From Phycisphaerae bacterium (GTDB taxonomy: Bacteria; Planctomycetota; Phycisphaerae; UBA1845), in NCBI GenBank assembly GCA_013360585.1, contig JABWBH010000012.1:1-64000 (forward strand): a stretch of 64,000 bases of DNA. The letters run 5' to 3'. Below, one piece after another: positions 3,459 to 21,552 of the stretch. The notes below the pieces were generated by a model. It searched no databases and was not told the origin of the DNA. It was given only the letters and a program-made list of their open reading frames with translations. A program made the translations under genes and the position numbers. The number at the start of each line of letters is the position of its first letter. Positions within the stretch are counted from its first letter, which is position 1.

Positions 3459-4589
3459 ATGCGCAAGTTGCACGCAGGTTGGAGCGGAACGCTGTGGGTG
3501 ATCGGAACGCTGGTCGTTCCCATCGCAGCATTCGCGCAGGAGACGGAGACGCTTACGAAGGACAACGTCATCGTCGGAACGATGAACATCGATTTCCGCA
3601 CGCGGACGGAGTTGGACACCAGCGGCGATTACAAGGCCGGGTCGCCCAAGATCGGCGTCAAGGACGAGTACAAGTTCGACATCACCGTGGCGGATACGAC
3701 CCAGTTCACGGGCACGATCACGCGCCAGCCGAACATCTTCACCAAGACGCTGCAGCGCTCCAAGCAGAGCGCGCAGCTCGGTTTCGACGTCTCCCTGACG
3801 GTGATGAACCCGAAGGATCTCAAGCAGAAGAAGGTCGTCGGGAAGTGGGTCGGCACGGTTCCGATCGACACCGCCTCGGGCGCGTACCAGCTCGCCGGCG
3901 GAAAGGCGCAGCAAAGCGCCCTGCGCATCGCCGTGGACGCGATGGGCAAAGCCTCGGCGTTCACCGACGAATTCGCCGGGCGCCTGATGGGCAAAGCGGA
4001 GAAGAAGGAGGGGCTTGCGGCTTACACGTATAAGCGCGTGGTCGGCAAGAAGACGGTCGAGGTCAAGGTGTCGAAGAGCGATCCGATGCGCTTCGACAAC
4101 ATCGTGCTGGGCAAGGGTCCGGCGGAAGTGTACCCGCGCACGACCGTCAACGGCCGCCTCGACTACGATTACGAGACGGGAAACTGGTACACGGACGGCA
4201 TCCGCTTCACGTACAACCTCAACGGTAAGGAGTACGAGGACATCGTGACCGGCTCGATCAAGTGGGTGGAGGATCCGAACCGCGAGAGCAACGGCAAGGG
4301 CTACTACGACTTCAACCTGCGGTTCAACGAGGAAAAGAGCCGCACCGCCAGCGGCGAGTCGGCGGCGTTCGAGAACATGTCCGACGAGGACGCCTTCTTC
4401 GCAGTGGACAACTCGATCCCGTGCATGACCGGCATGATCAGCTACGTTGACACCTTCGGCGGAGACAACGACCTTCCGACGTCCAGCCAGGTGGCGTTCA
4501 ATCTGAACGCGAATCAGTTGACGAAGGCGCAGATCATGAACTTCTTCAAGCTGTGGATGATCTGCATCGGACCGACGAACGACGAGTAA
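3459..4589 (+). CDS. exported protein of unknown function
   Basis: The 376-residue product has a clean signal peptide (MRKLHAGW, hydrophobic core, AFAQ cleavage site). The mature part is rich in beta-strand-like alternation and Lys/Thr/Asp, with no family I recognise; two Cys near the end (..IPCMTGM.. and ..WMICIG..) could pair. AAGGAG ten bases before the ATG fixes the start; the frame is open further upstream but without a signal sequence. A strong hairpin follows the stop (4613-4670), so the gene is probably transcribed alone. Likely periplasmic or surface-attached. Confidence 0.75.
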   Translation: MRKLHAGWSGTLWVIGTLVVPIAAFAQETETLTKDNVIVGTMNIDFRTRTELDTSGDYKAGSPKIGVKDEYKFDITVADTTQFTGTITRQPNIFTKTLQRSKQSAQLGFDVSLTVMNPKDLKQKKVVGKWVGTVPIDTASGAYQLAGGKAQQSALRIAVDAMGKASAFTDEFAGRLMGKAEKKEGLAAYTYKRVVGKKTVEVKVSKSDPMRFDNIVLGKGPAEVYPRTTVNGRLDYDYETGNWYTDGIRFTYNLNGKEYEDIVTGSIKWVEDPNRESNGKGYYDFNLRFNEEKSRTASGESAAFENMSDEDAFFAVDNSIPCMTGMISYVDTFGGDNDLPTSSQVAFNLNANQLTKAQIMNFFKLWMICIGPTNDE

Positions 4590-4612
4590 CCGTCTGACCA
4601 GCGTCTTTCGCC

Positions 4613-4670
4613 GCCGGGCGATCCGGTCTTCGCAGGGGCAGCCCCGCGCGGACCGGGTCGCCCGGCGTGT
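4613..4670 (+). terminator. long-stem terminator after the exported-protein gene
   Basis: Bases 4613-4628 pair with 4651-4666 over 16 positions with one G-T wobble. The 22-base loop contains its own GGGGC/GCCCC hairpin. A short run of four T follows at 4669-4672. It sits 23 bases after the stop of the gene ending at 4589. Confidence 0.6.
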
Positions 4671-17066: not shown

Positions 17067-17651
17067 TCAGGTGAGCTTCCGTTTGCCGTCGCTCAGTTCG
17101 TTGATGAGTTCCCGGATGCGCCGCATCACCCGATGCTTGGCGATGTACACCTGGTTGAGCTTCATGCCCAAGTCGCTCGCCACGGCGTCGGCGGGCCTTC
17201 CCTCGATGGCGTGGGCGCAGAAGGCCGCGAACGTGTGAGGCGCAACCTCATTCCGCACGTGCATCGCGCAGATACGAAGCAGCTCCGCACACCACTGCCG
17301 ATCCCACAGCGTTGTCAGTGGCGGATCGTCGGAGGGTTGAGCCTCCAGAACTGCGGTCGTCGCCTGAGTCTCCCGCCGCCTGCGGAAATGATCCCGCACG
17401 CGCCGTTCGATGATGAGGCGCAGCCAAGCTCGGAAGCCGCCCTCCTGCCGGTGTTTGTAGCTCGTCAGACCTCGTAGAACCCCCTCGTTGGTCTGTTGGA
17501 CGATGTCGTCGGCGTCAGCGGGCTGCATGCCTCGGGCCAGGGCATACTGGACCATCATGGGCCGATAGATCCGGTCAAACTCCCGCCACGCGGAATGGTC
17601 GGAAGGATCCCTGATGCGCTGCAAAAGAGTTGATTGCGTCGCCTCCGCCAC
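17067..17651 (-). CDS. ECF-type RNA polymerase sigma factor
   Basis: The 194-residue product shows the sigma-2 region (WREFDRIYRPMMVQYALARGMQPADADDIVQQTNEGVLRGLTSYKHRQEGGFRAWLRLIIERRVRDHFRR) and a C-terminal sigma-4 region (HAIEGRPADAVASDLGMKLNQVYIAKHRVMRRIREL). The DADDIVQQ and the long linker are typical of planctomycete ECF groups. The start is GTG at 17651 with GGAGG seven bases before it; an ATG further upstream lacks a site. It is divergent from the large exported protein at 17917, which it might control. No anti-sigma gene is adjacent. Confidence 0.88.
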   Translation of the reverse strand: MAEATQSTLLQRIRDPSDHSAWREFDRIYRPMMVQYALARGMQPADADDIVQQTNEGVLRGLTSYKHRQEGGFRAWLRLIIERRVRDHFRRRRETQATTAVLEAQPSDDPPLTTLWDRQWCAELLRICAMHVRNEVAPHTFAAFCAHAIEGRPADAVASDLGMKLNQVYIAKHRVMRRIRELINELSDGKRKLT

Positions 17652-17916
17652 GGCACAACCTCCGGCCGGTCTGAACCCGTTGCGGGAATTAATCATCGCA
17701 TTATACATCAAGCCCACCGGTGTCAAGAAAACGGCATCAAACCCCTGATTTCACGCGAATTCTCACCTTCGGATCAGATTGTCTGATCCAACCTGAAAAA
17801 TGCGCGTAAGGATTCTGGGCCGCCCGCGATCCAGATACTGGGAGAAGGGCCGGAAACGGGCCTCAAACCGACTCTTTCTGAACGGCACACGGACGGATGT
17901 TGCGGGGAGAAGGGCC

Positions 17917-20628
17917 ATGAAAACTGTCAAAAAGGTTTGTGCCTGTTTCGTCGGATTGGGACTGACCGTGCCCCTGGCGGCGCAGGAGTGGACCACGACC
18001 TGGTGGATCGACGGATGGTGCAGCCCGGAGAGCTGGGCGAACTACTTCAGTCTTGCCGTGGACCCCGACGGGAACGTCATCGACGGCGCCACGGCCGGTC
18101 GATGCAGCTCTATCACCACAACAAGAAAGATCGATGGCGAATCGGGCAATCGGCTGTGGTTCAACAGTTATTCGTATAATAACATGTGGGTGGACGTCTT
18201 GCCCATCGCGGTCGATCCGGACACGAAAGATGTCTATCACGGGCGAATAGCTGCTGGCTGGCCATGGTTTCTCCACCTGCTTCAGAAACTCGACGGCGAG
18301 ACTGGCGCTATCATCTGGGAGCAGGTGTACTGGCTGTATTCCGCAGTGCGTCCGACGCAGATCATTCCCCATGGCGGGTCGCTCTACGTGGCGTACAACA
18401 GTGAGAGCAGCCCGCTGGGCGCCGTGCGTTGTTTTGATGCGGAAACCGGCGGGATGATCTGGGAGCTGGGATTCGGCGATCTCGGACTGCCCGGCGCGGT
18501 CCCGGTCACTTTCAATATCGACCAAGGCCCGGATGCGCATTGGGGTCTGGGATTCATCGCCGGAACGTACATGGACGGAAGAAAGCCGGCGATCTGGGTG
18601 ATGGCCATCCAGCTTTCCGACGGGAGCCGCCGCTGGCTGAAAACCTACGTCCCCGAAACGCGCTACGCATCCGTCGTGGTCGACCCAAGTCTGGCGGTCC
18701 ACGACGTCACCGGCAACGTCTACGCGGTCACGACCTTCAAGCGTTTTGATGGCCAGCAGGAGTACCTCGTCGTCCATCTGCGCACCACGGGTGACATCCA
18801 GTGGACCGCTCCGGCGAAGCACCCGCATCAGCACGGTCCGCTGGCCATCCACTTCGGCGACCTCGTTGTCGCCGGGCACTCGCCGCGCACGGCCGCCGGC
18901 GACGAATCTCTCCTCGACGTCGTGATGTACTCGGCCTTCAACGGCAGCCGGAAGTGGGAAACCAAGATCAACCTGATGAACGCCGGGCATCACTCCACGG
19001 TCGCCACGGGCAGCGGCCCGCGGTCCTTCCTCCAGCGCAACTGGAAGCAGGAGTTTGCGCTGCTGACCACCGCGCCGGGCGTGGGCCACATTAATTATCC
19101 TGAGACGAAAAACCCCTCCACGGCGCTGATCTGGCTCGACGCCTACGGCAGGCAGATATCCACCAGCACCCGGCTCGAAGTGGTGGGGTGGACCAGAAAC
19201 GGATGGGGGGAAATAGTCCCCTTCAGCACCACCCCGCGCGCCCTGGCGGTGGACCTGAACGGAGACGCGGCGTTCACGGCGCTATACCAGCAATACATGG
19301 TCCTCCCAACAGCCCACGCCGCGAAGCGTTCCTCGCCGGACGTGGAAATGGGCGACACCCTCCTCACCGGCCAACCGTACGTGCGTCAGCCGGTGGCCCG
19401 TCCGTGGCGCGTGCTCAAGGGCGAAACCGTCAGCCGGGGGGCCTTCGGCTGGAACTCCTACCTGCCCTGCCACTCGTGGTGGGGCTGGGGCATCAACCGC
19501 CTGTATGACGAGGAGTTGCCTCGCATATTACTTCCGAGTCATGGCGATTGGCTCTATCCCGTGCGGAATATGTATAGCGGTCGATGCCTGCTCACCCTGA
19601 ATCAGTGCTTCAGCGGTGGGTTCCTTGACGATCTCGATGATTCCGGGATCAGTCCGTTCGTCGTCATGGCGTCGTCGGCGTGGAACCGGCTCGCCTTCGG
19701 GCGCGACGCCGACGAGACCGACTCGCCCTGGCTGGACGCCGACCCGAAGACGCCGCGGATGTTCTTCGCCTACGCGTGGTGGTCGGTGATCCATCCGGCT
19801 CCGGTGACGAATATGCGGACCGCGTATTCATCCTTCGCCGGGTATCCGCCCCCCTATCGCCCCGTGGACCGGCCGCAGTACTACGCCCGCCCCACCAGCA
19901 GCGGCGACGCCACGCTCGAGGACACCGCCGCCAACAACATCCTCATCGTCGTCGGTGACGACCGCGCACCCGACGGCCGGCGGGTCACGCACTTCTATGA
20001 CGACGCCCGGCGCCTGTACGACACGCTCGTGCGCTATGGGCATACGAACATCGAGGTGTACTACTGCGACGGCACGCCGCCGCCGAATCCCACCGACATG
20101 CCCGGCGTCCTGCCGCTACCGATCCACGACATGGCGGAGGAATACTACATTGCCCGCTCACAGTGGGTTCACACCAACGCGCAGAAGTTCATCTGGTTCA
20201 GCGGCAACGGCGGACTCAGCGCCCGTTTCAGCGGCCTGCTGCGACTCACCGCTGCGGACGGCGGCGGCGTGGACGCCACGATCTCCGAGGAACTCGGTCC
20301 GGTGGTCAAGCGCCTCTATCGACCGGGCGACGAGGTGCATCCACCGAGATTGCGTATCGGCGCGCTGAACCTGCCACAGAACGCCGGCGACCTGAAGGCT
20401 TACGTCAATGACCACCTGGTTGCGGACGGCATCCGCAACCCCGGCGGCGAATACGTCTTCGACGCCGCGCTGTTCAAAAACAACGAGAACACGATTCGCT
20501 TCGTCTGCGACAACGACGGCGGCGGGACGGTGGAGGTGGGCGAGTTCGAAATCCTGATCGAGGGCCACAAGGGCGGCGCGAAAACGCGTGAGGTGCATGC
20601 GCACGGCGGCCCGATTCCGGTTCCCTGA
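17917..20628 (+). CDS. exported beta-propeller protein with caspase-like segments
   Basis: The 903-residue product has a signal peptide (MKTVKKVCACFVGLGLTVPLAAQ). Residues about 40-450 repeat PQQ-like blades (LDGETGAIIWEQ, FDAETGGMIWEL, LSDGSRRWLK, FNGSRKWE). Then LTLNQCFSGGFLDDL, with Cys564, matches the active-site strand of C13/caspase-like peptidases, with His542 (PSHG) 22 residues before it. Only afterwards come a first-strand-like segment NILIVVGDD (from residue 674), a helix YDDARRLYDTLVRYG, and FIWFSGNGG about 89 residues on, where such proteins carry the catalytic His but this one has Asn764. The order thus looks circularly permuted. A beta-rich C-terminal domain ends the protein. 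Probably surface exposed; peptidase activity uncertain. Confidence 0.75.
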   Translation: MKTVKKVCACFVGLGLTVPLAAQEWTTTWWIDGWCSPESWANYFSLAVDPDGNVIDGATAGRCSSITTTRKIDGESGNRLWFNSYSYNNMWVDVLPIAVDPDTKDVYHGRIAAGWPWFLHLLQKLDGETGAIIWEQVYWLYSAVRPTQIIPHGGSLYVAYNSESSPLGAVRCFDAETGGMIWELGFGDLGLPGAVPVTFNIDQGPDAHWGLGFIAGTYMDGRKPAIWVMAIQLSDGSRRWLKTYVPETRYASVVVDPSLAVHDVTGNVYAVTTFKRFDGQQEYLVVHLRTTGDIQWTAPAKHPHQHGPLAIHFGDLVVAGHSPRTAAGDESLLDVVMYSAFNGSRKWETKINLMNAGHHSTVATGSGPRSFLQRNWKQEFALLTTAPGVGHINYPETKNPSTALIWLDAYGRQISTSTRLEVVGWTRNGWGEIVPFSTTPRALAVDLNGDAAFTALYQQYMVLPTAHAAKRSSPDVEMGDTLLTGQPYVRQPVARPWRVLKGETVSRGAFGWNSYLPCHSWWGWGINRLYDEELPRILLPSHGDWLYPVRNMYSGRCLLTLNQCFSGGFLDDLDDSGISPFVVMASSAWNRLAFGRDADETDSPWLDADPKTPRMFFAYAWWSVIHPAPVTNMRTAYSSFAGYPPPYRPVDRPQYYARPTSSGDATLEDTAANNILIVVGDDRAPDGRRVTHFYDDARRLYDTLVRYGHTNIEVYYCDGTPPPNPTDMPGVLPLPIHDMAEEYYIARSQWVHTNAQKFIWFSGNGGLSARFSGLLRLTAADGGGVDATISEELGPVVKRLYRPGDEVHPPRLRIGALNLPQNAGDLKAYVNDHLVADGIRNPGGEYVFDAALFKNNENTIRFVCDNDGGGTVEVGEFEILIEGHKGGAKTREVHAHGGPIPVP

Positions 20629-20645: not shown

Positions 20646-20691
20646 CCGCCTGACGAATCCCACGGTGCGGGCCGGGCGATTCGTCAGGCGG
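20646..20691 (+). terminator. 14-bp inverted repeat after the caspase-like gene
   Basis: Bases 20646-20659 pair perfectly with 20678-20691 around an 18-base loop, starting 18 bases after the stop codon. No T-run follows, so it may be a Rho-assisted end or an RNA-protecting hairpin. Confidence 0.45.
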
Positions 20692-20793
20692 GCGACTGAT
20701 TCGGCGATGGTTCCCCGGTATTCTCCCGCACCCAGATGGCGCGGTCCTGTTTCGGGGGTCCGCCTGATATTGCCGTTGCGCCATCCTCCCGTC

Positions 20794-21552
20794 ATGCTGT
20801 CCGATGGATGGGACACAGCCCGGACCGACGAGCCGGCGGTGACCCGCCTGGGAACCCAGATGCCGATCTCAGGAATTGACGACCTGCCGCTGCGGTACCG
20901 GACGCCTCGCGCGTGGGCCGACGGCGTGCTCGAGGCGCCGCTTGCGCTGCTGAACGATCATGCGCATCTTGAGAAAAAAGCCGCCGCCAACGCGCTCGAA
21001 CTGCTTAATCGATGGCCCGAACCGAACCCGCCGGAGAACTGGGTCGCGGCGATGACCGCCGTCGCGCGCGACGAGGTTGAGCATCTGGCCCTCGTGGTTC
21101 GCCTGCTGGCGCGACGCGGCGGACGCCTGACACGGACCCACGCCAACCCCTACGCCGCCGCGCTGCGCGACCTCGTCCGCTACGGCGACGGTCCGGACGA
21201 ACTCGTCGATCGTCTGCTCGTCAGCGCCCTGATCGAGGCCCGATCCTGCGAGCGCTTCGCCCTGCTCGCCGACGCCTGCACCGACCGGGCGCTCGCCCGC
21301 GTGTACCGCGGATTGTGGGCGTCCGAAGCCGGGCATTACCTCAGCTTCCTGAACCTCGCCCGCGAACTGCGGCAGAATGAAAGCGACTCGCGACTCTCCG
21401 ACCGTCCGCGCGGTCGCGGAAAAGGCAGCGCTCGGCACACGGGCGTGGACGATCGCTGGTCGTGGATGCTCGAACGCGAGGCGCGCCTCATCGCCGATCA
21501 ACCGCCGGGACCGCGCATGCACAGCGGTGTCGGTGTGCGGAAGGCGGGTTGA
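20794..21552 (+). CDS. miaE: MiaE, tRNA-(2-methylthio-N6-isopentenyl-A37) hydroxylase
   Basis: The 252-residue product is a ferritin-like diiron monooxygenase that hydroxylates the isopentenyl group of ms2i6A37 in tRNA. Iron-ligand motifs are all present: LNDHAHLEKKAAANALELL, ARDEVEHLALVVRLL, ALIEARSCERFALLA and WASEAGHYLSFLNLA. The segment RGGRLTRTHANPYAAALRDL is also typical. The C-terminus carries a polar extension. The start is uncertain: ATG 20794 and ATG 20860 both lack a clear ribosome binding site. The miaA and miaB genes, needed to make the substrate, are not in the window. Confidence 0.9.
   Translation: MLSDGWDTARTDEPAVTRLGTQMPISGIDDLPLRYRTPRAWADGVLEAPLALLNDHAHLEKKAAANALELLNRWPEPNPPENWVAAMTAVARDEVEHLALVVRLLARRGGRLTRTHANPYAAALRDLVRYGDGPDELVDRLLVSALIEARSCERFALLADACTDRALARVYRGLWASEAGHYLSFLNLARELRQNESDSRLSDRPRGRGKGSARHTGVDDRWSWMLEREARLIADQPPGPRMHSGVGVRKAG

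Follow-up and report, generated by a model that had tools for sequence, protein, structure and literature searches.

In the window, by which we mean the whole 64,000-nucleotide stretch of DNA analysed here, one gene raises the question of how a caspase-like domain comes to carry its catalytic segments in reverse order. The gene encodes an exported-type protein of 903 amino acids, and its start at 17917 is the equivalent of the methionine with which its orthologue L002 begins (Table 1). An earlier note on this DNA had pointed out that the strand motif of the presumed catalytic cysteine, LNQCFSGGF, stands before the first-strand segment NILIVVGDD and before the motif FIWFSGNGG, in which Asn takes the place of the catalytic His. 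It had offered two readings, either a permutation of the domain together with an altered active site or a fusion of two partial domains. The observation itself was accurate: LNQCFSGGF occupies residues 561-569 (from 19597) with the cysteine at residue 564, NILIVVGDD follows from residue 674 (19936) and FIWFSGNGG from residue 758 (20188), with Asn764 at the histidine position. In the N-terminal part, Pfam PQQ_2 (PF13360) covers residues 123-356 above its gathering cut-off (E 8e-7; 29.4 bits against 27.6), which identifies the propeller. With the window protein alone as query, no family match for its C-terminal half was found in Pfam, NCBIfam or PDB sequences, and Pfam Peptidase_C14 was not found in the protein's own genome. 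A gene that looks by eye like a sigma factor (17067-17726, minus strand) lies divergently about 190 bases upstream of the start, and the downstream ORF (20665-21552, plus strand) is one which we take to resemble the tRNA hydroxylase MiaE.

Table 1. Features of the window protein and its gene (positions in the window).
Feature	Position	Strand	Basis
Window protein: signal peptide, beta-propeller, permuted caspase-like domain, C-terminal beta-rich domain	17917..20625	+	
Probable signal peptide MKTVKKVCACFVGLGLTVPLAAQ	17917..17985	+	Read from sequence; L002 N-terminus similar
PQQ/BamB-like beta-propeller region	17986..19356 (ends approximate)	+	PF13360 PQQ_2
Cys-half of permuted domain, first in chain	19441..19911	+	Half-HMM E 9.8e-29
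Cys564 codon, equivalent of catalytic Cys	19606..19608	+	Invariant, 22/22 permuted relatives
Linker, ancestral C-terminus to ancestral N-terminus	19912..19935 (ends approximate)	+	
His-half of permuted domain (strands 1, 2, 3), second in chain	19936..20235	+	Half-HMM E 1.5e-17
Asn764 codon (AAC), catalytic His position	20206..20208	+	His in 20/22 permuted relatives
Putative C-terminal beta-rich domain	20236..20625	+	Weak alignment with relatives

The same order of segments was found in other proteins. A search of 150 related genomes recovered an 86% identical orthologue (L002; also L004) in the BroJett003 MAG; this orthologue was the sole match in a scan of genome contigs, and a scan of viral contigs found no relatives of the window protein. 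A protein from another family of the same order (L003; 31% identity, E 2e-23) is without the propeller and has its histidine intact: an apparent signal peptide leads directly into the Cys-half (MAQCYGGGF), followed by strand 1 (VALIFVGED), the motif FIWTSGHGG, a beta-rich region and a dockerin-like end. An order-wide profile search revealed a second exported permuted protein in the window's own genome (L011:1402-2778, on G000:C48 at about 40.8-42.2 kb), in which both catalytic residues are intact. Near-identical copies occur in two congeners (L009, L010), and in all three the Cys-half comes first and DHG last. Class-wide searches added L016-L019, L021, L023, L024, L027, L031, L083-L087, L095, L098 and L100, while L008, L032 and L034, weak matches of the first round, turned out to be unrelated proteins and were dropped. 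Since the Cys-first order is common to L002, to the His-intact and propeller-less L003 and to 22 distinct ORFs, it is not a product of chance. Judged by these comparisons of sequence, the permutation is a trait of a family and not a peculiarity of the window gene. Nor does a scrambled contig or an annotation error offer an explanation: nothing was found in favour of such an artefact, the order recurs in independent assemblies and many families, and the reading frame is open and free of stops, so that we give this possibility practically no weight.

The proteins differ in what surrounds the domain. After the His-half, a beta-rich region similar in appearance to that of the window protein is present in L003, L011, L017, L019 and L021, as seen in a weak alignment. 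The permuted protein L016:1399-3513 (G731:C373) carries a PDZ-like stretch towards its C-terminus (PF13180 at E 5e-4, under the cut-off), and besides the dockerin-like end of L003 there are PEP-CTERM-like ends in L017 and L019. Sorting signals thus appear to vary among permuted members, because their C-terminal ends differ (PDZ-like, dockerin-like or PEP-CTERM-like). In one genus-level group (L027, L031, L083, L084), long DxNxNGxPDxC-like repeats, which resemble calcium-binding repeats, precede the permuted domain. The gene neighbourhoods of nine permuted loci, inspected by eye, had no partner gene in common.

To place the two segments relative to ordinary domains, we split a 14-sequence alignment of permuted proteins (A5) into a Cys-half and a His-half, built an HMM from each and ran the two separately against all fetched ORFs. 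The half-HMMs were then iterated; the ORFs of ordinary order were all absent from the first training set. Twenty-two distinct ORFs had the Cys-half first (plus L087, recognised by eye), and about 50 had the ordinary order. In the ordinary proteins, the end of the His-half and the start of the Cys-half are mostly separated by only about 0-12 residues. Because the halves abut in this way, the two termini of the permuted domain map to a single loop in the ordinary one, namely that which immediately follows the catalytic His. Indeed, a profile made from permuted sequences only matched single ordinary proteins (G234, G186 and G357) in two adjacent, swapped blocks; in G234:C95, for example, positions 3893-4210 correspond to model positions 153-242 and positions 4211-4639 to model positions 3-149. 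When half-fragments of ordinary proteins were aligned with MAFFT without being placed beforehand, the HG of every His-half fragment fell on N256, and the catalytic Cys of nearly every Cys-half fragment on C56 (both in window-domain numbering). In an earlier mixed alignment (A7), where the half-fragments were long, their tails came out scattered, and A8 took its place.

Known structures gave the same swapped pattern. Against PDB sequences, the permuted profile matched metacaspase-4 as two separate segments (E 5.3e-11), with 173-257 aligned to 16-89 and 24-73 to 110-154; legumains and plant asparaginyl endopeptidases were matched in a likewise swapped manner, with E-values as low as 3.4e-10. With the family profile of the His-half alone, the regions matched were N-terminal, both in metacaspases (E 8.8e-8) and in legumains (E 0.005); matches of the Cys-half profile alone to metacaspases or asparaginyl endopeptidases were weak (best E 0.0013). 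In Pfam, C13 (PF01650) matched six of the 14 permuted members at E<1 and did not match the window domain. In L017, PF01650 was above its cut-off over part of the profile, with profile positions 147-233 lying N-terminal to the His-half. One C13-like protein of ordinary order, L005:1489-3051 on the minus strand (G266:C98; PF01650 E 9e-10), seemingly has a propeller-like N-terminal region like that of the window protein.

We turned to structure prediction, which the earlier note had proposed as a check, naming segments that belong to different folds as the outcome contrary to a permuted domain. With permuted sequences only, AlphaFold2 gave a weak model (pTM 0.59), for which Foldseek and VIA returned mostly Rossmann-like and phosphoribosyltransferase structures. 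With half-fragments of ordinary proteins added, the model reached pTM 0.77 and pLDDT 73 and was best around C56 and N256, although the added fragments, which carried no pairing between the halves, may bias each half towards the caspase fold; residues 79-146 of this second model are less sure. In VIA, it was most similar to an engineered, circularly permuted caspase-2, cpCasp2 (8vp4_B, Z 8.9, 158 residues aligned at 3.6 A; 9c2y_C, Z 8.7; model residues 67-260). Next came human legumain (4awb_A, Z 7.1, model residues 4-162 on 150-286), followed by plant legumains and the catalytic subunit of GPI transamidase. That an engineered permuted caspase stands above all natural ones among the matches listed is a strong independent sign of a permuted topology in the model. 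Foldseek found no significant match for the second model, as is to be expected, since that search depends on sequence order and the target structures are mostly unpermuted. The predicted model and the profile matches of both halves together point to the caspase/haemoglobinase fold of clan CD. The permuted reading was therefore not refuted by structure prediction, and of the two options in the earlier note, the first is supported by the swapped-block profile matches, the compact model and the structural matches to cpCasp2.

The second option, in which partial domains from two different caspase-like domains have been joined and form no single fold within the chain, is not favoured. A linker does connect the halves, and an origin by tandem duplication would itself have passed through such a state. 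However, each permuted ORF contains exactly one Cys-half and one His-half, with no significant match to a second copy of either; the prediction is one compact domain with those 158 residues aligned to the engineered permuted caspase-2; and a very diverged family has conserved both the catalytic Cys and the catalytic His, which is best explained if the two residues meet. We consider a fusion of this kind very improbable. It is also quite improbable that the Cys-half packs on the His-half of another chain, such that the active domain would be an intermolecular, domain-swapped dimer. Short linkers would suit this arrangement, the half-profile matches being separated by 7-25 residues in nearly all permuted relatives, and caspases work as dimers (PMC4357240), whereas the second model (pTM 0.77) is a compact monomer and legumain, from one of the nearest families with solved structures, is enzymatically active in monomeric form (PMC4357240).

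We conclude that the segment is very probably one caspase/legumain-type domain (clan CD, C13-like) which was circularly permuted in evolution, with its ends just after the catalytic His. The Cys-half comprises strand 4 with the Cys, strand 5 and the C-terminal part of the ordinary domain, so that the chain would run through strand 4 (Cys), strand 5, the linker, strand 1, strand 2 and strand 3 (His). The catalytic order is Cys-His because the cut falls between the His and Cys strands. The two halves would pack into one active-site fold in which Cys and His meet as in ordinary clan CD peptidases. An ordinary gene was probably duplicated in tandem, after which the outer halves were lost. Sampling of 397 genomes from the window's class yielded permuted members in about 20, and the 22 ORFs come from about eight families (f1, f4, f10, f11, f17, f19, f21 and f22). 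All loci fetched from outside the class, in a phylum-wide sample, had the ordinary order or one recognisable half only. In a tree with both halves joined in ordinary order, three label changes were needed, and a tree with a single origin was not rejected (lnL difference 1.9, p-AU 0.43). A cut point that is the same throughout would also favour a single origin. Through sequence comparison and modelling, we could thus demonstrate the permutation, its cut point, a family limited to one class in our sample and the near-universal retention of both catalytic residues.

The Cys is kept in 22 of 22 permuted ORFs and precedes the His position in every one of them, the reverse of the His-before-Cys order of clan CD, and the His is kept in 20, mostly as DHG or GHG. 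The clan CD His/Cys dyad is therefore present in the permuted family at large and absent from the window protein and L002, the only two with Asn at the His position. By comparison of sequences, the replacement of His by Asn is an event of its own, confined to this lineage. Their fold, motifs and signal peptides make it most likely that permuted members in which both residues are present work as exported cysteine peptidases. Between the window protein and L002, dN/dS is 0.27 for the whole gene and 0.19 for the His-half (Nei-Gojobori counts), and the former value indicates purifying selection, by which the His-less protein is maintained. As this selection persists despite the loss of His, we tend to see a pseudopeptidase without proteolytic function in the window protein and its orthologue, and it may bind a peptide or protein partner jointly with the fused propeller. 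Retention of the Cys and purifying selection could also speak for a peptidase still at work through Asn764 or some other residue in place of His. However, Asn is not expected to serve as a general base, and the two nearby candidates for a substitute were rejected: His542 (SHGDW) is Asn in L002, and the His of PCHSW is not conserved there. A working peptidase thus seems quite improbable. Because the new N-terminus adjoins the catalytic His, the permutation might even be a control device, where removal of the signal peptide or N-terminal domain at export forms or frees the active site and turns the peptidase on only extracellularly; the window lineage would then have its propeller at that end of an enzyme that is now a pseudopeptidase. 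We regard this as an unlikely, speculative possibility.

Clan CD peptidases include caspases, legumain, gingipains and separase, and the position of His ahead of Cys is part of what assigns a peptidase to the clan. That a diverged family of natural bacterial proteins has the dyad reversed indicates that this order is not fixed and that the clan CD fold can be opened between the two strands bearing the catalytic residues. Annotation based on motifs or their order would miss the permuted proteins, for which NCBIfam has no matching model and Pfam covers a partial domain in some. They offer natural, single-chain permuted legumain-like proteins for study, together with a testable example of a probable pseudoenzyme that derives from them. 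In the open-access literature searched, we found no earlier description of a natural circular permutation of this type in caspases, metacaspases, legumains or clan CD.

To conclude, how does this family compare with known systems? Clan CD families are assigned by the dyad's order and type and by what surrounds it (PMC4357240). The permuted family is most like C13 (legumain/asparaginyl endopeptidase; PF01650) and the bacterial C13-like exported proteins: both halves match in profile and fold, the QC-x-GG and [DG]HG motifs are shared, the proteins are exported, and C13-like relatives of ordinary order occur in the same phylum and class. It differs from C13 in that the halves are swapped, Cys then His, that no legumain-type C-terminal prodomain was recognised and that the window member is without the His. 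Loss of a catalytic residue with retention of the protein has parallels in the pseudo-orthocaspases, where Tyr/Ser replace His/Cys (PMC6426788), and in inactive prokaryotic caspase homologues, of which Planctomycetes have only 64% His-Cys conservation (PMC3501461), although no permutation is described there. Circular permutation of a caspase fold without loss of activity is known from cpCasp2 (PMC7760212; PDB 8vp4, 9c2y). That protein is man-made, whereas the permuted family is natural and cut between His and Cys. The cpCasp2 construct is reportedly cut between the large and small subunit. Among natural proteins, the type III metacaspases of algae also have a rearranged caspase-like domain, in which p10 precedes p20 (PMC5756287). 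However, type III metacaspases keep p20 whole, with both catalytic residues, His then Cys; the permuted family, being bacterial, exported and C13-like, has no such p10 N-terminal to an intact p20, but is cut inside the p20 equivalent, which reverses the dyad. Its Cys-His order is unlike that of the known clan CD families, type III metacaspases included.
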